From the NCBI RefSeq assembly GCF_003173355.1, contig NZ_QGMY01000008.1, positions 434,001 through 498,000 on the forward strand: a stretch of DNA of 64,000 nt. The letters are read 5' to 3'. Positions 11,360 through 38,345 of the stretch are shown in pieces. Under the pieces are notes generated by a model. It worked only from the letters and a program-made list of their open reading frames with translations. It had not been told where the DNA came from and made no database searches. The stretch is from Methanospirillum lacunae. Lineage in GTDB: Archaea; Halobacteriota; Methanomicrobia; Methanomicrobiales; Methanospirillaceae. Position numbers and translations under genes: made by a program. Each line of letters begins with the position of its first letter. Position 1 is the first letter of the stretch.

Positions 11360-14300
11360 ATGCGAGGATTCGGTATTGTGTCCCCGGCTCTCAGCCCTGC
11401 TTCGCTGTATGATCGGATTGCGCTTTATTGTGGAATCCTGGCTGTTATCATAGGAAGCACAGCTCTTACCGGCTGGGCTGTGAATGCCAGAATCCTTGCT
11501 GGTGTCAGGGTTGATTACGTCCCGATGGCACCAAACACCGCACTCCTTGTCATCCTTTTGGGTTGTGCTCTCTGTTTGATATCGCTTTTTCCAATGCATT
11601 TCTATTCCCGCCGGGCCGTTGAGATCATCTCCTGTTTTGGGATTTTACTGGCTGGAATAACCCTGCTTGGGATTATCGGGCTCGTGGATTTTCAGATCGA
11701 CTACCTGTTTTTCCATCCGTCTGACATGCTTGGCTCTGTTCCTGTCGGGAAGATGTCTCCGGTGACTGCTGTCTGTTTCCTGCTTCTTTGCTTCGGGTTT
11801 CTTCTTCAAAAAATAAGATTCAGATATGCGGCACTCATCGCAACGGCAGTGTCAGGTGTCAGCGGAATGATGATCATCGGATACTGGTATGATGCACCTC
11901 TGCTCTATGGTGGGTCTGTTATCCCTGTTGCATTTCCGACAACTGTGGCTCTTATCATACTTGGAGCCGGGCTTGTTGCCCTCTGTGGCCCCGGTACCTG
12001 GCCACTTTCACGGGTATCAGGTGAGTCCACCAGCGCCAGACTCCTTCGAAGCCTGCTACCGGTTACTGTCCTCCTTGTTTTGTTTTTAAACTGGGTTACA
12101 ATTCTCATCAGTGGAAGATCAGACAGTCTCATTGTTCTCATATCTGCATTATGGGTCATCATTTCTGCAGGGATTGTATACATTGTAGTCTCCAGGCTTT
12201 CCAGGGCTATTGGTGGAGCCCTGGATAAGGCAGAGAACGATCGGAAGAGATCAGAAGAACAGTTGCGAGAAAGCCAGGATCTGCTCATCATGGCCCAGGA
12301 GATTAGTCACAGTGGTTCCTGGGTGTATTATCCAGATTCAGGAAAGGTATGGCAGTCTGCAGAGGCATCCAGAATTTTTGGATTTCCTCCACAAGTACGT
12401 GAGTATTCTCTGGAAGAACTGTGGTCATGTATTACATTTACTGAGCCGGATTTAACAGTTGAGAATTTTCTTGAGAAAATAACTGATGAAACTATTCTGT
12501 TTACCATTCAACCGGTTGATGGCTCTCCGTCCGGAATAGTGCATGCCATTGGAAGGCGTGAATATGATTCTGATGGCAATTTCGTGAGGGCTGTTGGTAT
12601 CATCCAGGATGTCACGAAGCAACAGGAGATATTACGGGAAAATGATCGGTTGATCATAGAACTGAGCACCAATAATGAACAACTCGGAGCAGCGTTTGAA
12701 GAACTATCAGGAGCTGAAGAAGAACTCAGATATCAATACAATGCCCTGTCACTCTCTGAAGAAAATCTCAGGCAGACAACAGAATATCTTGAAAACCTCC
12801 TGTCCATCGCAAATGTTCCAATAATTGTCTGGGATTCATCGTTTAGGATCACCCGGCTCAACCGTGCTTTCGAGGACCTGATTGGCAGATCCTCAAGCGA
12901 AATAGTGGGAAAAGAGATCACGACTTTGTTTCCTGCAGGTGCCCAGGATAGGTCAGAACGGCTTATTCAGACAACCCGGGATGGTGTCAGATGGGAGACT
13001 GTCGAACTTGAGATAATCAGAAGTGACGGTACTATCCGGACACTTGTCTGGAACTCGGCAACTCTGTATTCTCCTGATGGGATCACTCCGGTTGCAACCA
13101 TTGCTCAAGGCCGTGATATAACTGATCAACTGCGGCTTGAGTATGAAAAAGAGCGTGCGGTAACACAGATTCAAAAGAACGTTGCTCAGTTATCTTTTCT
13201 CAACGATGAGATTAGAAACCCGCTGACCCTCATTGCCATATCTGCAGAAATGGATGATGAGAAAGCAGTTGGTGTCATCCTGGATCAGGTGATGCGGATT
13301 GACCAGATGATCACACAAGTTGACAAACGGTCATGGGAGTCTGAGAAGATCCTTGAGTACCTTCGTAAGCATACGCCGATGGCAATTACCCAATCTGCTG
13401 ATCAGAAAAATGACTCCACAATTAAGAGCCACATTCCACTTGTCGAAGAGGTTCAGGCAGAACTTTACACTATTCTTGACAGTATTGATGCTATTGTGTA
13501 TGTTGCAGACATGAAAACCTACGAGATCCTCTTTTTAAACCGTCAGGGGAGGGGAATTTTCGGAGATTATGTTGGGAAGAAATGTTATGAATACATCCAG
13601 CATCTTCAAGGTGGTCCATGCCCGTTCTGCACCAACCATCTTTTGGTCGATGAATCAGGACCAACCGGTGTACATCACTGGGAGCTACAAAATACACAAA
13701 ACGGCAGGTGGTATGACTGTCGCGACCGTGCCATACGATGGACCAACGGAAAACTGGTCAGGCTTGAGATAGCAACTGATATCACTGATCTTAAAGAAGC
13801 AGAAGAGAGATTGCGCGAGAATGAGAGCCTGATCAGGAAAAAACTGGACGCTCTTCTCTCACCTGAAGGTGGTATTGATGTTCTGACGCTTTCTGAAATC
13901 ATAGATATTCCACAAGTTCAGCGGATCATGGATGATTTCCACTCGCTGACCGGCCTCCTCGTAGCTATCCTTGATCTTCAGGGATCGATACTTGTAGCGG
14001 CAGGATGGCAGGAAATATGTACACGCTTTCATCGTGTCAATCCGGAAACCTGCAGAAACTGTCTTGAGAGTGATACCATCCTGTCGAAAGGTGTTGCTCC
14101 CGGGACGTACAATGCCTACCGGTGTAAAAACAACATGTGGGATATTTCAACCCCGATTGTGGTAGGCGGCGTCCATATTGGTAATCTCTTCCTGGGTCAG
14201 TTCTTTTATGATGATGAGGTTGTAAACCTGGATTTCTACAGGGAGCAGGCTATCAGGTATGGGTTTGATGTTGATTCGTATCTTGCAGCCCTTGAGAAGG

Positions 14301-16222
14301 TCCCCCGGATGAGCAGGGAGAAGATCGACATTGCAATGCATTTTTACACGCGGTTGATCTCGCTCGTCACCCAGGTCAGTTGGAGCAACATTAAACTTGC
14401 ACGTATCGTTCACGAACGTGATCTCCTCCTTGCGTCTGTTAAAGAGAATGAAGAGAAGTACAGGCATCTGATTGAGCATGCTAATGATGGCATTGCGGTA
14501 ACACAACAAGACAGACTACAACTGGTTAATACCCGATTGGAAGAGATAACAGGGTATCAGAAGAGTGATCTTCTCTCCCTCCCCTTTGTCACGTTTATTC
14601 ACCCTGATGACCAGGCAACGGTATCCGAACGATATATGAAGCGGCTTGTAGGTATGGACGTCCCTTCCCGGTATACGTTCAGGCTGATCAGACCAGATGG
14701 GGCTGTTGTCTGGATTGAAGTGAGTGCGGTGATTGTTGACTGGGAAGGAAGACCTGCGACACTGAATTTTATTACTGATATTACAGAGCGGAAACTTGCA
14801 GAAGATGCTCTTCGTATCAGTGAAGGCCGGCTCTCCACACTTGTCCAGACACTTCCTGATCTGGTCTGGCTTAAAGATCCTAATGGGGTGTTTATCGCAT
14901 GTAACCACATGTTTGAGCGATTTTTTGGTGCTAAAGAAGCCGAAATCATTGGAAAAACAGATTATGATTTCCTAACCCCTGATCTCGCAGAGTTTTTCCT
15001 TTCCTATGATCGTAAGGTGCTGGAAACCGGTATTCCTGGTAGAAATGAGGAGTGGATCACCTTTGCCGATGATGGGCATCGGGCACTCCTGGATACAATA
15101 AAGACGCCGATGTATGACTCCGAAGGTACTCTTATCGGGGTGCTTGGGATCGGCCGTGACATAACATCACGCAGAGAAGCAGAAGAGGGGTTGATTGCTG
15201 CCCAGGAACGGCTCAAAGAAGCTCATCGTCTTGCCCATTTTGGTACCTGGGATTGGATCATTGAACCTGAAACCATAACCTGGTCAGAAGAGATCTACAT
15301 GATTGCAGGCTTGGATCAAAACCGGCCAGCTCCCGGTTCTGCTGAAATGCGACGTATATTCTCCCCCTCGAGTTGGGAACGGTTGATTACGTTATTTGCT
15401 CACTCTCTCTCTACAGGTGAATCTTTTACTATTGAACTTGAGATGGTCAGACCGGATGGAAGTACCTGCTGGGTTCAGGGGTTCGGAGGTGTTAAAAAGG
15501 AAGAGAATGGGAAGATCATCGGTTTGCATGGGACACTGCAGGATATTCAAGAACTCAAACAGGCAGAAGCAGCCCTCTATGAAGCAAACCATAAGTTACA
15601 TCTGCTCACCAGCCTGACACGCCATGATATCCTGAATCAGGTGTCAGCACTGGAAATGTTCCTTGATTTGGCATCAGAGTCTTCAGACCCACTCAAGACA
15701 AGGGAGTATATTAAAAATTGTATTACGGCCACTGAGCAGATCGAGCGAACAATCGGGTTCACCCGTGAGTATGAGCGGTTTGGCGTTGTATCCAGTGGAT
15801 GGCAGAGAATCAGGGTCATCATCAGTTCTGCGATGGCAGAGATCACTCTTGAGAGTATATGTGTGCAGAACGAAATTCCTGAAACTCTTGAGGTATATGC
15901 CGATCCCATCCTCCGGAAAGTCTTTACTACCCTCATTGAAAATGCAGTCAGGCATGGGGAGAAGATAACGTATATCCGGTTTTCAGTCTCTGAAACAGTT
16001 GATAGCCGTGTTATCATCTGCGAAGATGATGGTGTCGGAGTGCCTGATGGAGAGAAAAAACTTATATTCGAACATGGATTTGGGAAGAATACCGGAATCG
16101 GACTATTTCTCGTGCGGGAGATCCTCTCTATCACTGGGCTTATGATTAAAGAGACCGGTGTTCCGGGAGAAGGGGCACGGTTTGAGATCCTGGTGCCTGC
16201 AGGAAAATTCAGACAGACCTGA
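11360..16222 (+). CDS. Membrane-anchored multi-PAS/PocR sensor histidine kinase
   Basis: A 1620-residue protein. Residues 1-280 hold about eight membrane helices (MASE-like input region). PAS domains lie at about 310-425 and 480-600. A degenerate kinase-like helix pair with LNDEIRNPLTLI follows near 610. A third PAS near 705-805 contains a CPFC cysteine pair. A PocR ligand-binding domain lies at about 835-1010 (CTRFHRVNPETCRNCLESD; YRCKNNMWDISTPIVVGG). Three more PAS domains lead to the kinase core. The H-box is LTRHDILNQVSAL, the short archaeal variant, and the ATP-binding domain shows NAVRHG, EDDGVGVP and GIGLFLVREIL. No receiver domain is present, so it must signal to a separate partner. 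PocR domains are associated with sensing small hydrocarbon metabolites; the ligand is unknown here. The ATG has a good GGGGAGAGG ribosome binding site. Confidence 0.9.
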   Translation: MRGFGIVSPALSPASLYDRIALYCGILAVIIGSTALTGWAVNARILAGVRVDYVPMAPNTALLVILLGCALCLISLFPMHFYSRRAVEIISCFGILLAGITLLGIIGLVDFQIDYLFFHPSDMLGSVPVGKMSPVTAVCFLLLCFGFLLQKIRFRYAALIATAVSGVSGMMIIGYWYDAPLLYGGSVIPVAFPTTVALIILGAGLVALCGPGTWPLSRVSGESTSARLLRSLLPVTVLLVLFLNWVTILISGRSDSLIVLISALWVIISAGIVYIVVSRLSRAIGGALDKAENDRKRSEEQLRESQDLLIMAQEISHSGSWVYYPDSGKVWQSAEASRIFGFPPQVREYSLEELWSCITFTEPDLTVENFLEKITDETILFTIQPVDGSPSGIVHAIGRREYDSDGNFVRAVGIIQDVTKQQEILRENDRLIIELSTNNEQLGAAFEELSGAEEELRYQYNALSLSEENLRQTTEYLENLLSIANVPIIVWDSSFRITRLNRAFEDLIGRSSSEIVGKEITTLFPAGAQDRSERLIQTTRDGVRWETVELEIIRSDGTIRTLVWNSATLYSPDGITPVATIAQGRDITDQLRLEYEKERAVTQIQKNVAQLSFLNDEIRNPLTLIAISAEMDDEKAVGVILDQVMRIDQMITQVDKRSWESEKILEYLRKHTPMAITQSADQKNDSTIKSHIPLVEEVQAELYTILDSIDAIVYVADMKTYEILFLNRQGRGIFGDYVGKKCYEYIQHLQGGPCPFCTNHLLVDESGPTGVHHWELQNTQNGRWYDCRDRAIRWTNGKLVRLEIATDITDLKEAEERLRENESLIRKKLDALLSPEGGIDVLTLSEIIDIPQVQRIMDDFHSLTGLLVAILDLQGSILVAAGWQEICTRFHRVNPETCRNCLESDTILSKGVAPGTYNAYRCKNNMWDISTPIVVGGVHIGNLFLGQFFYDDEVVNLDFYREQAIRYGFDVDSYLAALEKVPRMSREKIDIAMHFYTRLISLVTQVSWSNIKLARIVHERDLLLASVKENEEKYRHLIEHANDGIAVTQQDRLQLVNTRLEEITGYQKSDLLSLPFVTFIHPDDQATVSERYMKRLVGMDVPSRYTFRLIRPDGAVVWIEVSAVIVDWEGRPATLNFITDITERKLAEDALRISEGRLSTLVQTLPDLVWLKDPNGVFIACNHMFERFFGAKEAEIIGKTDYDFLTPDLAEFFLSYDRKVLETGIPGRNEEWITFADDGHRALLDTIKTPMYDSEGTLIGVLGIGRDITSRREAEEGLIAAQERLKEAHRLAHFGTWDWIIEPETITWSEEIYMIAGLDQNRPAPGSAEMRRIFSPSSWERLITLFAHSLSTGESFTIELEMVRPDGSTCWVQGFGGVKKEENGKIIGLHGTLQDIQELKQAEAALYEANHKLHLLTSLTRHDILNQVSALEMFLDLASESSDPLKTREYIKNCITATEQIERTIGFTREYERFGVVSSGWQRIRVIISSAMAEITLESICVQNEIPETLEVYADPILRKVFTTLIENAVRHGEKITYIRFSVSETVDSRVIICEDDGVGVPDGEKKLIFEHGFGKNTGIGLFLVREILSITGLMIKETGVPGEGARFEILVPAGKFRQT

Positions 16223-19506: not shown

Positions 19507-21354
19507 TCAACCAGAATTATCAAAGTTTGCTGATTTTTGAAATTCAATCCTGATATCCTCTTTTCCAGGTTCCATCACGCTTTCGACAACACCACCGGCA
19601 TAGGCTATCTCCCTGATTGTTGAACCCGGGAGCGGAAGTTCTGATTCAAGGTTTGGTCCCACCGGGGTCAGGATCATATGAATTCCGTTCTTTTCACCTG
19701 TCAGTGTAATATTCAGAGATTTGGCGTTGATACATTCAAGATATTCGATGAGAGCGATAAATGAGTCATACAACCGTTCTCTGTCTGCCAGGATTGTAAT
19801 TGCATCTTCATCGACTTCGTAGTTTTCTGTGGAAATGTGATATGGAAGATGATGGGCATAGGGATGATGAGCAATTCTTTTTACTATTGCCTGGCGGTAT
19901 GCCTCTTCATCATCCGCAATTGTAATGAGTTCCTCATCACTCACTCCGGACTGTTCTCCTGCAAAGACCTCATGAATCATGGATATCAGCATGACAGGTT
20001 CGTCTTTACCGTCCGGGATGATGCCCTGGATAGTTGAGAGAAAATCTGAGAGGATTCTTCTTGCCCGTCTGAGAAGGGATCTGTCAATAACTGATTCCAG
20101 TGATTCGGCAGGAAATGCCTTTTCTATCTGTTCAAATACCTGCAGGGCTTTGTGGACTACCTCGGGTTTAATCTTTTTTCCCGCCTTGAATTCCTCATAG
20201 AACCGGTTGAAATCCAGAAGAAATTGATCCACCTGTTCATCGCTGAATAGGACACATATATCTGCCGCCTCCTGTTCCATCTCAATATTTTCAAGACGAA
20301 AGCATAGTGACATCATACGGCCTGCAATGATCGGAAAGAGTCGGTGAGCTTCATCGATAAGATCAAGCCCGTGCCAGAGTGAGAGGTTCAGCCTTTTAAC
20401 GTTGTACTCTGAAATGTCAGGCATCACACTGATCTCTTTTTCCATGCGGCTGACCATCGCCATGGCACCTGAATAATCAAACGTTCTCCCATGGCCCGGG
20501 CAGCAGATTGTGTCTTCTGTCAGAAGATGATCCCTGATATTGTAGATAGAATCGAGCAGGTCGCTTTTATTCCAGCCAGCCCTTCCTGCGATTCCCGGAT
20601 TGGTGGCAAACGGGATATCACCGACATGAAGCAGCGTCCCTATACTGATGGACATACTCTCCTGGCTGTGACCCGGAGTGTTCCAGAAGGTTATGTAATC
20701 CCCATCTTCAAGCAACATAGACTGGCCATACAGTGTCCGGCCGTTAGTAGAGACCTGGTGAGAATTGAGGATAATTTCTCCAAATCCTTCAATGTTAACG
20801 ATCTTTTTTATCTCTGCTGCCTTGTCTTCTGGTGTCAGGAGGTGAAGGGCCACATGTACTGGTGACTGGGGCAGACCAACGATATCTGATCCCGTCCAGT
20901 GTGCGTCACCGGCCTCAAGTTGCTCTGCACCCCAGTGCTCTGCTGCAATGATAGTCCTGCCAATTCTGCGCAGCTGGCGATCAACCAGCCCGAAGTACAT
21001 ATGATCCACATGGATATGCCCTGCAATCAGAATGATCCGATGATTTTGGTCTGAAACTTCTTTAGAAAGAATCTCTCTGACTTTCTCCATCTGATCCGTG
21101 ATAGCTCCCGGATCGATGACCAGTAAATGCCTGCCGCTTCTGATAATGTAGGTATTTGAACCGGTAATCGAGGGTTTTCTGATAAACGGATAGACCCATG
21201 CACTTCGTGTCTTTGGTATCTGCTGCCAGACCTCATTCTCGAGTTGCATCACGCGGTTATTCTCTACTGGCATTCTTGGTACTAGTTTTTGTGTTCTATC
21301 ATAATACTCATTTTTCCGGTGTATGATGAACTCCTTCTTTCTGCCTTCTGCCAA
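19507..21354 (-). CDS. Metallo-beta-lactamase-fold protein with a kinase-like C-terminal module
   Basis: A 615-residue cytoplasmic protein. The N-terminal part is a metallo-beta-lactamase domain with the metal-binding motif GHIHVDH (residues about 112-118), TPGHS with the next histidine, VGDIPF with the bridging aspartate, and CPGHGR with the last histidine. The full metal site is therefore present and hydrolase or oxidoreductase activity is plausible. Residues about 330-610 are a helical region followed by an alpha/beta domain closely resembling the C-terminus of the fusion protein at 34887-38345 (LFPIIAGRMMSLCFRLENIE here, LFTIISGRLLSLEFIMSQIG there). It resembles a histidine-kinase dimerisation plus ATPase unit without the H, N and G boxes. 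The start is uncertain: TTG at 21354 or ATG at 21273, neither with a clear ribosome binding site. It is divergent from the STAS/RsbW-like pair with a 38-nt gap. Confidence 0.85.
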   Translation of the reverse strand: MAEGRKKEFIIHRKNEYYDRTQKLVPRMPVENNRVMQLENEVWQQIPKTRSAWVYPFIRKPSITGSNTYIIRSGRHLLVIDPGAITDQMEKVREILSKEVSDQNHRIILIAGHIHVDHMYFGLVDRQLRRIGRTIIAAEHWGAEQLEAGDAHWTGSDIVGLPQSPVHVALHLLTPEDKAAEIKKIVNIEGFGEIILNSHQVSTNGRTLYGQSMLLEDGDYITFWNTPGHSQESMSISIGTLLHVGDIPFATNPGIAGRAGWNKSDLLDSIYNIRDHLLTEDTICCPGHGRTFDYSGAMAMVSRMEKEISVMPDISEYNVKRLNLSLWHGLDLIDEAHRLFPIIAGRMMSLCFRLENIEMEQEAADICVLFSDEQVDQFLLDFNRFYEEFKAGKKIKPEVVHKALQVFEQIEKAFPAESLESVIDRSLLRRARRILSDFLSTIQGIIPDGKDEPVMLISMIHEVFAGEQSGVSDEELITIADDEEAYRQAIVKRIAHHPYAHHLPYHISTENYEVDEDAITILADRERLYDSFIALIEYLECINAKSLNITLTGEKNGIHMILTPVGPNLESELPLPGSTIREIAYAGGVVESVMEPGKEDIRIEFQKSANFDNSG

Positions 21355-21392
21355 ATAGTGAAATAGCTATCACACCTTCATTCTTATTACGT

Positions 21393-21743
21393 ATGAGTGA
21401 ACTGCTCGATGTCACAACCCGGAACATTGAGGATGTTACTATTGTTGATGTATCCGGAAGAATGGATGCAGCCACATCTCGTGATGTGGAATCTGTATTG
21501 AACTCCCTGATTGATGGGGGTTCCCGTAAACTAGTCTTTAACGGGCAGCATCTCTCCTATATCAGCAGTTCCGGTCTGAGGGTAATACTCGCCTCATTGA
21601 AACGTCTCCGGCAGGACGGTGGGGAGATGATTTTAGCCTCGCTCCAGGCCGCTCCTTTGGAGGTAATAAAGATGACCGGGTTTGATCGGATTTTTACCAT
21701 CTGTGAGACTCCTGAACAGGCGATCAGCCGTATAACCAGTTGA
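21393..21743 (+). CDS. STAS-domain protein (anti-sigma-factor-antagonist family)
   Basis: A 116-residue single-domain STAS protein. It has the family layout: an N-terminal strand pair (IEDVTIVDVSGRMDAATSRD), a conserved Asp/Gly turn, then LVFNGQHLSYISSSGLRVIL. The serine in the SSSGL motif is the site that RsbW/SpoIIAB-type kinases phosphorylate in bacteria. The next strand-helix (GEMILASLQAAPLEVIKMTG) and C-terminal ICETPEQAISRI complete the fold. In bacteria such proteins release sigma factors from anti-sigma kinases. Archaea generally lack sigma factors, so the downstream target here must differ. The RsbW-like ATPase gene follows 46 nt downstream on the same strand, and the two are presumably co-transcribed. 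Confidence in the family is high; the pathway is inferred. Confidence 0.92.
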   Translation: MSELLDVTTRNIEDVTIVDVSGRMDAATSRDVESVLNSLIDGGSRKLVFNGQHLSYISSSGLRVILASLKRLRQDGGEMILASLQAAPLEVIKMTGFDRIFTICETPEQAISRITS

Positions 21744-21789
21744 TGCCGGATGTATCTGGGCATTCTCTGGTTAATCATCAGGTGATATT

Positions 21790-22206
21790 GTGATCTGCGA
21801 ATCTGAAGGGATTGTAGTTCCAGCAACGATTGATGCTATTGAAGTGGTGGCTCAGTACCTTGAGGAATGTCTTGAGCAGGCAGATGTTCCCCTGATGGAT
21901 ATGACGAGGATTCAACTTGCAGTTGAGGAGGCTGTCACGAATGTTGTTACTCACGGATATGAAAATCCGGGTGGTAATGTCTCTGTCAGGTGTGTTTCAT
22001 CCCCTGAACTTGTCACGATCACGATAACAGATACCGGACCTGCTTTTGATCCAACGAAAATACCTCCTGCTGATGTGACTGCTGATCTGGATCACAGAAA
22101 TATCGGAGGTCTTGGGGTTCACCTGATCAGATCAGTGATGGACGAGATTACATATAACCGCGAGATGGATGAAAACCATCTGACACTGGTTAAACGGCTC
22201 GGTTAA
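21790..22206 (+). CDS. RsbW-like serine-protein kinase (GHKL ATPase)
   Basis: A 138-residue single-domain GHKL ATPase of the HATPase_c_2 (RsbW/SpoIIAB) class. The N-box is IQLAVEEAVTNVVTHGY, with the Glu-Glu-Ala-x-x-Asn pattern. The G1 box is ITDTGPAFDP and the G2 region is NIGGLGVHLIRSVMDEI. All ATP-binding elements are present, so it should be an active kinase, most likely for the serine of the adjacent STAS protein. The start is a GTG at 21790 preceded by AGGTGA at a suitable distance; there is no closer ATG. Together with the STAS gene it forms a classic partner-switching pair. Because sigma factors are absent in archaea, likely clients are a response protein, a transporter or the divergently encoded metallo-beta-lactamase protein, but this is inference. 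Confidence 0.9.
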   Translation: MICESEGIVVPATIDAIEVVAQYLEECLEQADVPLMDMTRIQLAVEEAVTNVVTHGYENPGGNVSVRCVSSPELVTITITDTGPAFDPTKIPPADVTADLDHRNIGGLGVHLIRSVMDEITYNREMDENHLTLVKRLG

Positions 22207-29008: not shown

Positions 29009-30916
29009 TCAAACAGTCTCTTCATGTATCTCTTGTTTTTTCAAAGGTGAAAACCGGTTAGGATCTGTATTCACATCAATGATGACCGGTTTGTTCAGTT
29101 GCATTGCCCATCTGACTGCCCTTCCAAGGTCATCAGGCTCGAACACGTGCTTTCCTTCTCCGCCACATGCCTTGGCATACATGGCAAAGTCAGGATTTTT
29201 CAGATCAGTTGCAAAGTTTTCGTAATTCTCGACCTTCTGTTCGACCCTGATCATCCCGAGCTGATGGTTATTCAGGACGACGACAACCATTGGCAGGTTA
29301 TACTTTACAGCAGTGACGAAATCTGCCATCGCCATTGCAAACCCGCCATCACCGGTGATACAGAAGACCTGGCTTTCAGGATACGCCAGTTTGGCTGCGA
29401 TGGCTCCGGGAAGACCAAAGCCCATGGTTGCAAGGTATCCTGACATTGCAAACCGCTGTTTCTTCATCTTGAAATTCCTGCCAAACCACCAGGCATTCTC
29501 CCCGATATCAATCGAGATTAGGGCATCATCTGGAATAACCTCTGAAAGTACTTTCATGATGTAAGGTGGCCGGATTGGTTTTGCATTCGGGTCTGCCTCT
29601 TTCTCCAGTTGTGCATCCCAGGATTCTACAATCTCCTTCACTCTTCTCGGTGAGTTTGGCCTGCCACGCTGTCTGACTATCGGGATAAGCCGCGAAAGCA
29701 CCTCACCCACATCACCGTAAACCGGTAATGTCTTATCGCCCTTTCCGAGCATGAGCGGTTCCCTGTCTATCTGCAGTATCTGTACCTGTTCAGGAACCAT
29801 GGTCTTCTTTGAGAATCCTACGCCGAGAGTTATGAGAAGGTCTGCCTGTTCTACCAGTTCACGGGCCTGTGGTGAGCCGACTGATCCAAGTATACCAACA
29901 TACTGCGGGTGTCCGTCAGGCAGGATACCTTTTGCCCTGAATGTTGAGAGGATGGGGGCATCAATTGCTTTTGAGAATGAAGAAAGGATATCTGCGTAGG
30001 AGAATGCCCCCCATCCGGCCAGGATCACCGGGTTTTCTGCCATATCGAGCATCGCTGCAGCCCGGGAGAGGGTGTCTGAGTCAGGTACAATTTTCAGGGA
30101 TGGAATAGATCCCTGAAGTGAGTAGACCTTTCCATCTAGTTGCTGTTTCTGAACATCATTTGGGACAGATATCTGCGCGACTCCTGACCTGACGATGGCA
30201 TGCTGAAGGGCGAGGATCAGGATCTTTTGTGTCATCTTCCGGTCATAGATGGTGTTATTATATACTGTAATTGGCCTGAAAAATGCATCCTGATCGATCT
30301 CCTGAAATCCTCCTGGTCCTGCATATTGCATAGATACCTGCCCGTTCAGGGATAGAACCGGAGTTTTGTCCTCTTTGGCATCGTACAGCCCGGTTGCAAG
30401 ATTCGTAGCACCTGGTCCTGCGATAGTAACACAGACAGCTATCTTTCCCGTGAACTTGTGATATGCTGATGCCGCGAGTGCCGCGTTCTCTTCGTGGCGG
30501 AATAGTGTAAACCTTGCATCTTTGTTCTTCCTGATAGCCTCAATGATGCCGAGTGAACTGGTTCCCGGGATTCCAAAGAACTCGTGAATTCCGAACGATG
30601 TTAACTGACGTATCAGCACATCCGAAACTGTAGTCTTCTTATCACCTTTTGTTTCACTCACCTTTTCTTCCTCAATCCGGGCAAAAGAACTCTTTCCAGC
30701 ATTGCATATCGGGCATTTCCAGTCCTCCGGAAGATCCTCAAACCGCGTTCCCGGGGCTGTGTGGGTTTGCTCTTCTCCTGTTTCTTCGCGGTAGATATAT
30801 GAACAGATGGCACAGCGCCAGGAATGATACGGTTCTTTCTTTCGTGCCCGTGTAATAGGTTTCAGAGGGTCAGGAAGGTTTTGAGGCATTGTTATACAAT
30901 TGATGCGATCTTTCAT
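29009..30916 (-). CDS. Rubredoxin-TPP-dependent enzyme fusion (pyruvate oxidase/acetolactate synthase-like)
   Basis: A 635-residue protein. Residues about 30-85 are a rubredoxin domain (WRCAICSYIYREETGEEQT; APGTRFEDLPEDWKCPICNA) with both CxxC pairs for one iron. Residues about 95-625 are a three-domain thiamine-diphosphate enzyme. The catalytic glutamate lies in FRHEENAALAASAYHKFTG, the central domain has VILAGWGAFS, and the cofactor motif is GDGGFAMAMADF followed by VVVLNNHQLGM. The closest relatives by pattern are pyruvate oxidase/PoxB-type and acetolactate-synthase-like enzymes; the GGFQEIDQDAFFRPIT segment fits that group. The rubredoxin could deliver or accept electrons, suggesting an oxidative decarboxylase using a non-quinone carrier. 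The substrate is not determined. The start ATG at 30916 gives a short basic N-terminal extension. A small zinc-finger gene is divergent. Confidence 0.87.
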   Translation of the reverse strand: MKDRINCITMPQNLPDPLKPITRARKKEPYHSWRCAICSYIYREETGEEQTHTAPGTRFEDLPEDWKCPICNAGKSSFARIEEEKVSETKGDKKTTVSDVLIRQLTSFGIHEFFGIPGTSSLGIIEAIRKNKDARFTLFRHEENAALAASAYHKFTGKIAVCVTIAGPGATNLATGLYDAKEDKTPVLSLNGQVSMQYAGPGGFQEIDQDAFFRPITVYNNTIYDRKMTQKILILALQHAIVRSGVAQISVPNDVQKQQLDGKVYSLQGSIPSLKIVPDSDTLSRAAAMLDMAENPVILAGWGAFSYADILSSFSKAIDAPILSTFRAKGILPDGHPQYVGILGSVGSPQARELVEQADLLITLGVGFSKKTMVPEQVQILQIDREPLMLGKGDKTLPVYGDVGEVLSRLIPIVRQRGRPNSPRRVKEIVESWDAQLEKEADPNAKPIRPPYIMKVLSEVIPDDALISIDIGENAWWFGRNFKMKKQRFAMSGYLATMGFGLPGAIAAKLAYPESQVFCITGDGGFAMAMADFVTAVKYNLPMVVVVLNNHQLGMIRVEQKVENYENFATDLKNPDFAMYAKACGGEGKHVFEPDDLGRAVRWAMQLNKPVIIDVNTDPNRFSPLKKQEIHEETV

Positions 30917-34886: not shown

Positions 34887-37800
34887 TCAGCCCTGCCAGG
34901 GTGTCAGACTGATGTGGATCAGAAGATTACTCTCGTTATGGGTCTGGCTGATTTTTCCTCCACTGATTCGGCACTCTTCAAAGAAGGATACCAGACTTTC
35001 CTGGGCTGGTGGCCATCCCGGCCCTGATCCCCGGCAGTCAAGTGTGAGCAGGATATCTGTCTCTTGCTTTAGACATGATAGTCTGATACTCTCTGCTCCT
35101 GCTACTCCAAGGTGTTCAAGAAGAGATATGATAAAGTCCTCGAATCGATCCCTGGCTATGCAAACTTTTGGTATGTTTTCACCTTGATCAAACGAGATTG
35201 AAACAGTTTCAAATATGGGAATATGGGCAAGACGGGTTACGAGAAGTCTGATGTACTGTTCTGGATCATCGCTGGCTTCAAGAAACTCTTCGTCAGTGAC
35301 CTGTTGACGCGTCAGATTGTCAAGAATGGACCTGATAAAACCTGATAGTTCAACATGGTCTTCTCTTGGGACCGGTTCCTCTCCTTCAAGCAGAGAGAGA
35401 TAATCCTGGTACAGCCGGTCAGCACGTCTTATCAGTGATGGATGGATAATACGGTCCAGTCCTTCCTTTTTGATCATCCGGTCTAATTTTTTTGTTATCT
35501 GCCCTGCCTTGAGTGCAAGTTCAAGATCATCACGGGTCCCTTCCTTGTGAAGATTTGAGAACTGGCTAAAGTCTTCGAGGAGATCATCTATGAGATCGGT
35601 GCTGATAAGAGTTCGAACCTTTCGGGCAATCTCTTCTTCACCGATCTGGCTCATGATAAACTCAAGTGAGAGGAGTCTGCCCGATATAATGGTGAACAGG
35701 TTACTCAAGCGTTCCATCGTCTCACTCGAAAGGATGGCGAGTTTCTTTTCCTGAATACGATCCTCTGCAGCATTTCCTGTTCGATTAATTGTGAGGAATG
35801 ATACTGTCTCTTCCCTGATGATAAACTGAAAGAGTATCAGTCCGAAGATTGGAAGCAGAACATTGAGAAGAAATGTTGCCAGAACTTTTCCATCATATAC
35901 CTCACCGGTTGTATAGAGGAGAAGAAACCTAAGTGAACCGATAAGAAATCCGATAAAGATAACCCGCTGGTATGTAAGATTCCGACGCCATAAAAGAGCA
36001 AAAAGACCAGCGACCACACCTGAAAGGATGGTGATCAGAGCACTGGCAGCCATATCTGGCCCACCTGTAACGAGTGCATATCCACCACCCAGGACTCCTG
36101 CAGCTGCTCCGATGATGGGACCGCCCAGGATACCTGCGATAGCAGGACCAAGATCTGGGAACTGGATTGCGATTCCCCACCGGGATTTGAATTCCATGTA
36201 CCCATATGCAGAGAAGAGACCGAAGATGACAGTCAACCAGACCCGTTCGGTCATGGTAGTCGCACTGATGAGGATATCCTGAAATGTTCGAGACCTTGTG
36301 AGAAGAAAAATGATGGCACCAAGAACTGCAATCCTGTTCAGGAGAGGAACGCCTGTCTCACTCATCCGGCCAGTTAAGAACACACTGATCAGGGCAAACC
36401 CGATGATCAGGATTACTACCACCTGTTTCAGGATTGGTGTTGATCCCAAGAACTGAGACAAAGATTGCCTGATGCCAGCCGGGAGAGGAAGTGAACCAGG
36501 CTCTGAATGCGTTTTTGTTCTCCTGGTCTTCTTCTCTTCTTCGATCAGGTAAAACACGATTACAAGACCAATCAGCAATGTTCCTAGTGTCGGGATAGTT
36601 ATCTGGTGGAGTTCTTCTATAGCATCTCCGACTACAGCCGGTTTAACAGCCCAGAGTAGAATAACCTGAATAAGTCCTGTAAATACAGTGATTAATCCAA
36701 GAATAAGTGTCCTGCGAGATGCAAATGCATCCCTGTACCTGGATATTACACCAGCAAGACATCCGGCAACGAGTGGAGGGATAATTTCAGCGTACCAGGG
36801 AAGTGTTTCAAAACCAGGGGAACCATACCCTCCGATTCCTGAAACTGCTCCTACAATTATTCCTGCGACTGGACCGCCAAGGAAAGCTGCAATGATGGGG
36901 ATAAGGGTGCCAAAACTGATCGGGAGAGTGTCAATCAAGATACTTGACCTGGTTCCGTATATCCCAAGGATAGAGAATATGCATATGAAAAGCAGGAGAT
37001 CTCCCCTCCCGGGTTTATGGTCAAGTACCGGGGTAATTACTCCTGACCTGATGACAAGGTAGAGGAGTATGAGAAGTCCGAGCAGGTTTTGCACAAGTGG
37101 AAGGCCGACATCATAAAAAACCTCTTCTCTAAAGAGGGCCATGAGCAGGTAGGCAAAAGTGCCTGCCGTCATGATAACAAACCAGAGGCGTGATCCACGT
37201 GCATACCGGGGAAGATGGGCATCGAGGTAAAGCAACATGATCCCGGTGAATGCAAACATGAATGCACCAAACGCAGAAGTGTAACTGATAAGAGTTTTGG
37301 GATTACCTGACCAGACGATGAAGAGCATAAGTCCAATGAACCCGGTGATGATAATCTGATAGGTTAGTTTTTCATTCCATCCCGAAACACCTGTTGAACA
37401 GAGGATTGAAGCGACTGCACGTGCCCGTCCGTCTGCCCCGGTTATGAGCACACCAAAGAGGATGACATACCCGGTAAAGAAGAATATCACTGCCCCGTGC
37501 GGAAGTGTGTTGAGTCCGGCAACCGCACCAGCAAAGAGATCTTCTCCTCCTTTTGTGTAATACCCCATTGTGAAGAACGCAAGGGTCATTAGTCCAGTGA
37601 TGAGAAATGCAATTCCCTGGGTAATCCTGACATTTCGTATCTGTTCTGCATAAAATGAAGCACCGTGGCGAAGACCGATCTTTTCCCTGAGCCATATTGA
37701 GAAGATGAGAAGGTTCAGACCCGAACCAACCGCACCCATAATCGGGATGATCTCGGTTACCTGCCCACGGGAAGCTGATGGGATGAGCCCGGCAGCCATG

Positions 37801-38345
37801 GCCTCGAATGGGATGGTGATTCCGAGGAATGTATAGATGACCCCGCCGATCATCACTGCTGCAAAGAAGAAGACCAGTTTTTCAAAAAGTGTGAAGTTCT
37901 TTTTGATTAAGAGTGGCAGGATAATAAACAGGGTTATTGTGGCGAGTATCTCTCTAGAACAACTAATCGGTATGAGTTCCTGAAGAAACTGTGCCGAGAA
38001 GAGGGCAAGACCGCCGTATCCGATCATCTCGAGCACGTAGATAAGGACCATGAAGAAGACTTCCCAGTTTTCAGGACCGGGAAAGCCATGCATACCATCA
38101 AAGATGTGTTCACCCTTGGCAAGTGTGTACCTGGCCAGTCCCTCGACAAGGACATACTTATAGATAAGAACCAGGATAGCAAGCCAGAGAAATGAAAAAC
38201 CTGTAAGGGTGCCAGCATTTACTGCCTCAGGAAATCCTCTGCCGCTGATAGAAACGGCAAGCATGATACAGGGGCCGAGGAAGAAGATGAGGTCAGTAAG
38301 AATGGGAAGGGAGAATTGGGTGAGTGAGTGGAATTTTGTGGTCAT
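34887..38345 (-). CDS. Nramp-like transporter fused to two LytS-type (5TMR_LYT) membrane units and a kinase-like module
   Basis: A 1152-residue protein. Residues 1-435 form about 11 membrane helices resembling Nramp transporters (FFLGPCIMLAVSISGRGFPE; WLAILVLIYKYVLVEGLARY), but the metal-binding DPGN and MPH motifs are not recognisable, so the substrate may not be a divalent metal. Residues about 445-605 and 680-845 are two LytS-type five-helix units with the repeated signature GP-xx-AGILGGPIIGAAAG and FGTLIPIIAAFLGGPVAG. Residues about 875-1152 are cytoplasmic and align with the C-terminus of the metallo-beta-lactamase protein at 19507-21354. That tail looks like a kinase dimerisation helix pair plus a degenerate GHKL fold ending in a DCRGSGPGW segment, but has no phospho-acceptor histidine motif. 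The start is the ATG at 38345. This is probably a transporter-coupled sensor. Confidence 0.8.
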   Translation of the reverse strand: MTTKFHSLTQFSLPILTDLIFFLGPCIMLAVSISGRGFPEAVNAGTLTGFSFLWLAILVLIYKYVLVEGLARYTLAKGEHIFDGMHGFPGPENWEVFFMVLIYVLEMIGYGGLALFSAQFLQELIPISCSREILATITLFIILPLLIKKNFTLFEKLVFFFAAVMIGGVIYTFLGITIPFEAMAAGLIPSASRGQVTEIIPIMGAVGSGLNLLIFSIWLREKIGLRHGASFYAEQIRNVRITQGIAFLITGLMTLAFFTMGYYTKGGEDLFAGAVAGLNTLPHGAVIFFFTGYVILFGVLITGADGRARAVASILCSTGVSGWNEKLTYQIIITGFIGLMLFIVWSGNPKTLISYTSAFGAFMFAFTGIMLLYLDAHLPRYARGSRLWFVIMTAGTFAYLLMALFREEVFYDVGLPLVQNLLGLLILLYLVIRSGVITPVLDHKPGRGDLLLFICIFSILGIYGTRSSILIDTLPISFGTLIPIIAAFLGGPVAGIIVGAVSGIGGYGSPGFETLPWYAEIIPPLVAGCLAGVISRYRDAFASRRTLILGLITVFTGLIQVILLWAVKPAVVGDAIEELHQITIPTLGTLLIGLVIVFYLIEEEKKTRRTKTHSEPGSLPLPAGIRQSLSQFLGSTPILKQVVVILIIGFALISVFLTGRMSETGVPLLNRIAVLGAIIFLLTRSRTFQDILISATTMTERVWLTVIFGLFSAYGYMEFKSRWGIAIQFPDLGPAIAGILGGPIIGAAAGVLGGGYALVTGGPDMAASALITILSGVVAGLFALLWRRNLTYQRVIFIGFLIGSLRFLLLYTTGEVYDGKVLATFLLNVLLPIFGLILFQFIIREETVSFLTINRTGNAAEDRIQEKKLAILSSETMERLSNLFTIISGRLLSLEFIMSQIGEEEIARKVRTLISTDLIDDLLEDFSQFSNLHKEGTRDDLELALKAGQITKKLDRMIKKEGLDRIIHPSLIRRADRLYQDYLSLLEGEEPVPREDHVELSGFIRSILDNLTRQQVTDEEFLEASDDPEQYIRLLVTRLAHIPIFETVSISFDQGENIPKVCIARDRFEDFIISLLEHLGVAGAESIRLSCLKQETDILLTLDCRGSGPGWPPAQESLVSFFEECRISGGKISQTHNESNLLIHISLTPWQG

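Follow-up and report, generated by a model that had tools for sequence, protein, structure and literature searches.

A metallo-beta-lactamase protein with a pseudokinase tail as a candidate target of the STAS/RsbW proteins of Methanomicrobiales

To our knowledge archaea have no sigma factors, and it is for this reason that the anti-sigma and anti-anti-sigma proteins encoded by the Methanomicrobiales have been puzzling since 2009. Proteins resembling SpoIIAA, SpoIIAB and SpoIIE were described in three members of this order, with targets that could not be determined, and the 'sigma factor regulators' reported include Memar_2467-2469 of M. marisnigri and Mlab_1450-1452 of M. labreanum (Anderson et al. 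2009, PMC2686161). Bacteria, too, have partner switches whose outputs are non-canonical or are not sigma factors. SypE/SypA and BtrU/V/W are examples (PMC8256260), and the HsbR/HsbA switch acts with the diguanylate cyclase HsbD (PMC5085249).

We analysed a stretch of 64,000 nucleotides of the methanogen Methanospirillum lacunae (the window; contig NZ_QGMY01000008.1, positions 434,001 to 498,000), in which a sequence-only reading had placed genes for a STAS protein, an RsbW-like kinase and a metallo-beta-lactamase (MBL) protein side by side. All three genes lie where that reading put them, and profile and structure matches confirm their identities. The features of the locus are:

19507..21354, minus strand: MBL-pseudokinase protein, open reading frame of 615 aa
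20425..21246, minus strand: metallo-beta-lactamase domain, residues ~37-310 (Foldseek; conserved ligands)
20029..20400, minus strand: helical hairpin or bundle, residues 319-442 (AlphaFold2 secondary structure; DHp-like position, no conserved His)
19534..20001, minus strand: degenerate histidine-kinase-type ATPase (GHKL) domain, residues 452-607 (AlphaFold2 element order; hhalign)
21393..21743, plus strand: STAS protein, SpoIIAA/RsbV-type antagonist, 116 aa (PF01740, TIGR00377; PDB matches SpoIIAA, TM1442)
21567..21569, plus strand: Ser59 of the STAS protein, predicted phospho-acceptor, equivalent of SpoIIAA Ser58
21790..22206, plus strand: RsbW/SpoIIAB-type serine kinase, 138 aa, GTG start (PF13581; PDB matches SpoIIAB, RsbW)

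The same trio, in the same order, was described by Anderson et al. (2009, PMC2686161), and the window locus is very probably a member of that group. In Methanomicrobiales the trio is therefore not new.

The surrounding genome (3.74 Mb; completeness 99.9 %, contamination 1.8 %) encodes six STAS domains, a single strong RsbW and four SpoIIE-type PP2C phosphatases (PF07228), none of the latter within 19507-22206. A sigma factor, the expected target of such a kinase, was sought through sigma-70 region 2 (PF04542), which has no match in the genome; the proposal of a partner-switching set that lacks a sigma factor therefore stands. The suggestion that the set forms a complete switch needs qualifying: every partner-switch component bar the sigma factor is present in the genome, while the locus alone lacks the phosphatase, which is encoded elsewhere. 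In many relatives a PP2C gene does lie at the locus, and the sensor parts found on these phosphatases are 5TMR, Cache-HAMP and CHASE4-PAS.

Upstream of the locus the window encodes a sensor histidine kinase of 1620 aa, very large and rich in PAS domains (11360-16222, plus strand). At 29009-30916 (minus strand) a thiamine-diphosphate enzyme with TPP_enzyme N, M and C domains carries a fused rubredoxin domain, which looks an unusual combination. Between 48226 and 58214 (plus strand) lie a SNF2-type helicase with DUF3670 and, further on, an SbcC/Rad50-like ATPase of 1226 aa, possibly a defence or DNA-repair cluster.

The STAS protein scores 75.6 bits against PF01740 (cut-off 22.6) and 81.3 bits against TIGR00377 (cut-off 53.45), and its closest solved structures in the PDB are SpoIIAA and TM1442. 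It falls below the cut-off of the SpoIIAA equivalog TIGR02886 (51.5 against 114.75). Ser59 is unchanged in all 97 distinct STAS sequences taken from the loci. The kinase matches PF13581 (HATPase_c_2) at 103.5 bits and has SpoIIAB and RsbW as its PDB neighbours. Across 66 aligned RsbW sequences E47, N51 and D81, the N-box Glu and Asn among them, are invariant, and the GG-LG box is almost so. Its scores against the NCBIfam equivalogs for anti-sigma B/F factors lie well under their thresholds (65.4 against 145, 57.4 against 155.05 and 51.1 against 135 bits), and we therefore call it RsbW-like only. RsbW-type kinase domains also form the C-terminus of a separate family of proteins of ~800-1020 aa (f6; L139:6360-8774, L140, L141 and L142). 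The L139 member matches the Cthe_2159 carbohydrate-binding family, and STAS and PP2C genes adjoin some of the f6 genes.

The MBL open reading frame begins with a TTG at 21354, which is probably too early, since orthologues start near its residues 28-36; the real start is likely to be the ATG at 21273 or 21249, giving a divergent intergenic region of ~120-145 bp rather than 38 bp. In an AlphaFold2 model of the protein (mean pLDDT 77.8) an MBL-like region precedes a long stretch of helices, after which comes an alpha/beta domain; a Foldseek comparison of this model with the PDB matches GloB and further MBL structures at E ~1e-8. Residues H113, H115, D117, H118, H229, D246 and H288 make up the HxHxDH, H, D, H ligand set, and none of the seven varies among the 81 aligned orthologues that exceed 500 aa. 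The window protein alone misses the Pfam MBL cut-off (12.7 against 22.7 bits), and its orthologues match Lactamase_B, down to 2.6e-17. Some members of the family also give a weak match to an ODP-family sensor.

The MBL protein had been credited with a kinase-like tail. The likeness is real: a profile of 84 tails aligns by hhalign to 47 histidine-kinase ATPase domains at 91.9 % (p 7e-7, 104 columns), against 9.6 % for a reversed-profile control, and unrelated families scored no more than 1 % in an earlier profile-comparison run. The 91.9 % was reached by iteratively widening a narrow histidine-kinase set, whose 4-5 sequences had given 38-84 %. Comparison with the RsbW profile was negative (3 %), and we regard the homology to GHKL domains as remote. 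The tail is nevertheless degenerate: the orthologue alignment contains no conserved His in it and no N-box Asn, and judged on these residues it is a pseudokinase. Spo0B/ChpT-type degenerate kinases resemble it in that a degenerate ATPase domain comes after a helical part. The helical region of the tail differs from theirs in lacking a conserved His, and on this test we reject a role as histidine phosphotransferase. Kinase structures were absent from the best 50 Foldseek matches listed for the whole-chain MBL model, and a model of an MBL-STAS fusion gave only MBL-fold structures among its best 50 listed; such whole-chain results say nothing on the tail.

GHKL domains bind STAS proteins in bacterial partner switches, and a tail derived from a GHKL domain would thus be a natural dock for STAS, a role that this analogy makes plausible. 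In one genome (G113; L223:7527-8459) the MBL domain has been lost, while the tail and an adjoining STAS gene are retained and RsbW is matched in part. This remnant fits a tail that is the STAS-linked part of the protein, yet may belong to a decay series of the system. The tail has a second carrier in the window, 13.5 kb from the MBL locus:

34887..38345, minus strand: membrane protein of 1152 aa with an Nramp-like part, a 5TM-5TMR_LYT sensor part and the pseudokinase tail also borne by the MBL protein (PF01566, PF07694)

Its 5TMR_LYT domain is double and its tail (residues 870-1151) scores 260 bits. The same architecture occurs in two further genomes (G214, L215; G211, L222), with partial evidence in a third (G206), and the protein may serve the system as a second docking protein. 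In G214 and G211 the gene adjoins one for 327 aa, whose counterpart in the window belongs to the phosphofructokinase family.

Whether the three genes co-occur in other archaea had been named as a check on the sequence-only reading, and they are indeed found together in many archaeal genomes. In a sample of 150 Methanomicrobiales genomes, 64 have an MBL-family match and 86 have RsbW. RsbW is present in 63 of the 64 genomes with the MBL match, against 23 of the 86 without it (Fisher p 2e-21, uncorrected for phylogeny), and the sole MBL genome lacking RsbW has a partial match only. Furthermore, both are missing together from members of several genera that otherwise carry both; where genomes lacking both were checked, PP2C matches were weak or absent. 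Outside the order, full-length MBL homologues occur in four genomes of another archaeal family. STAS or RsbW genes are present at three of these four loci and a PP2C gene at the remaining one, and in one of the four genomes a CHASE4-HAMP-PAS-PP2C-RsbW fusion protein adjoins the MBL gene. Counting against an MBL output are the 23 genomes with RsbW and no MBL match, where RsbW must be supposed to have other targets; its neighbours there (cation efflux, aminotransferase and CxxCxxCC proteins) look incidental or lineage-specific.

Where both genes lie on one contig, MBL and RsbW are at most 5 kb apart in 22 of 45 genomes and at most 25 kb apart in 39. We examined 56 loci in which 4 kb or more flank the MBL gene on both sides. 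A few of these loci overlap or stem from very similar genomes, so that the counts are not of independent events. STAS is fused to MBL or within 300 bp of it in 31 of the 56. Within 5 kb of MBL, STAS is found in 38 loci, RsbW in 23, PP2C in 22 and a STAS-F14 protein in 13, and the next family after these reaches 8 at most. In three metagenome-assembled genomes (L171, L172 and L178, two of them titled Methanolinea) MBL, tail and STAS form a single polypeptide, and 24 further MBL genes have STAS on the same strand, overlapping or within 300 bp. Arrangements differ: in Methanoregula STAS and MBL typically share one strand, with 5TMR-PP2C and RsbW divergent on the other, while in the window's genus MBL is divergent from STAS-RsbW. 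A Cache-HAMP-PP2C-type protein adjoins MBL in five relatives (G149, G205, G207, G208 and G210), the domains having been read in G149 only. MBL and RsbW are separated by 11-15 kb in Methanoculleus and by large distances in some genomes, which counts against an MBL output; the intervening Methanoculleus genes (DUF2207, DUF3821 and unknown families) offer no coherent effector.

Our conclusion from the co-occurrence and neighbourhood counts is that the MBL protein is the linked partner of the STAS/RsbW set that it had been taken for; as far as genome comparison goes, it is a conserved partner of archaeal STAS/RsbW and genetically tied to STAS. Gene-level evidence likewise establishes the components of a sigma-free switch, their conserved catalytic residues, their linkage and their fusion.

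From these we infer the phosphorylation of STAS, its docking on the MBL tail and the direction of control. RsbW would phosphorylate Ser59 of the STAS protein, and a PP2C with a membrane or PAS/Cache sensor would strip the phosphate again. STAS, most likely in its unphosphorylated form, would dock on the degenerate GHKL tail as RsbV does on RsbW, and this docking would switch the MBL hydrolase or its assembly; the output would then be an MBL enzyme instead of a sigma factor. That the phosphorylation state of Ser59 is governed by PP2Cs and RsbW, and that STAS controls MBL through the tail instead of a sigma factor, is the reading we favour, with rather better than even confidence. More tentatively, and at somewhat less than even confidence, we suggest that the tail acts as a general receptor for STAS, carried by the MBL protein and the Nramp/5TMR protein alike, in a sigma-free post-translational pathway that controls a metallo-hydrolase directly.

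The order of events could also be the reverse, with MBL-pseudokinase upstream: MBL would sense or make a ligand, the tail would sequester STAS or RsbW, and the output would be unlinked, for example a transcription factor. The presence of the tail on an input-like Nramp/5TMR membrane sensor in the window's genus speaks for this, as do the weak ODP-family matches and the retention of RsbW in 23 genomes with no MBL match. We nonetheless think it unlikely, given that the dinuclear metal site is complete and invariant, as in MBL hydrolases, and that the PP2C proteins already supply the sensors.

Another candidate for the main output, leaving MBL as a side branch, is the F14 family, in which STAS is joined to an uncharacterised domain of ~320 aa and which repeatedly adjoins RsbW or PP2C (L161:7079-10307 (G000:C7), L094, L095, L107-L112 and L126). 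F14 genes are neighbours of RsbW at many Methanoregula-like loci and at some others, and of HAMP-PP2C in the window's own genome, and they account for the 13 of 56 MBL loci given above. However, F14 is rarer at the MBL locus than single-domain STAS and is missing from many MBL loci, and no F14-MBL fusion was seen at the loci examined, making this reading improbable.

We consider it highly improbable that the neighbourhood is simply an inherited gene island whose products do not interact directly. The variable distances, large in some genera, would suit such an island, but the MBL-STAS fusion, the joint absences within genera and the reappearance of the set, differently arranged, in a second family would not. 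Finally, it is extremely improbable, and largely refuted, that the set came from bacteria by transfer or contamination as a sigma-factor regulator and still acts on an unrecognised sigma factor: these families are best known from bacteria, yet PF04542 is unmatched in this genome, its contamination is low and 86 of the 150 genomes sampled from the order have homologues.

If an MBL enzyme is indeed controlled by STAS, archaea, for which few signalling routes are known, would gain a serine phospho-switch. Full-text searches of an open-access library found no paper tying an MBL protein to archaeal STAS/RsbW, and a recurrent, partly fused MBL-pseudokinase partner appears to be a new and concrete candidate for the missing target. 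Having such a conserved partner makes the question of the target testable with few proteins.

Compared with the loci of Anderson et al. (2009, PMC2686161), for which no target was named, the present analysis adds a candidate target, fusions and a range outside the order. With the SpoIIAA/SpoIIAB/SpoIIE and RsbV/RsbW/RsbU switches of Bacillus subtilis the archaeal set has in common a STAS protein with a conserved serine, a GHKL serine kinase and a sensor PP2C. It differs from them in that it lacks a sigma factor, that the protein repeatedly linked to it is a pseudokinase-tailed MBL enzyme, and that the phosphatase is not at the window locus. With glyoxalase II and hydroxyacylglutathione hydrolase-like MBLs (PDB 7l0b and others) the archaeal MBL protein shares the fold and the dinuclear metal ligands, whereas it adds a C-terminal helical and degenerate GHKL tail, and the window sequence on its own does not reach Pfam-level membership. 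SypE/SypA, BtrU/V/W and HsbR/HsbA have in common with the proposed switch a STAS protein under kinase/phosphatase control that acts on a non-sigma target; they are bacterial, and in the literature on them we found no MBL output of the kind suggested for the archaeal switch.
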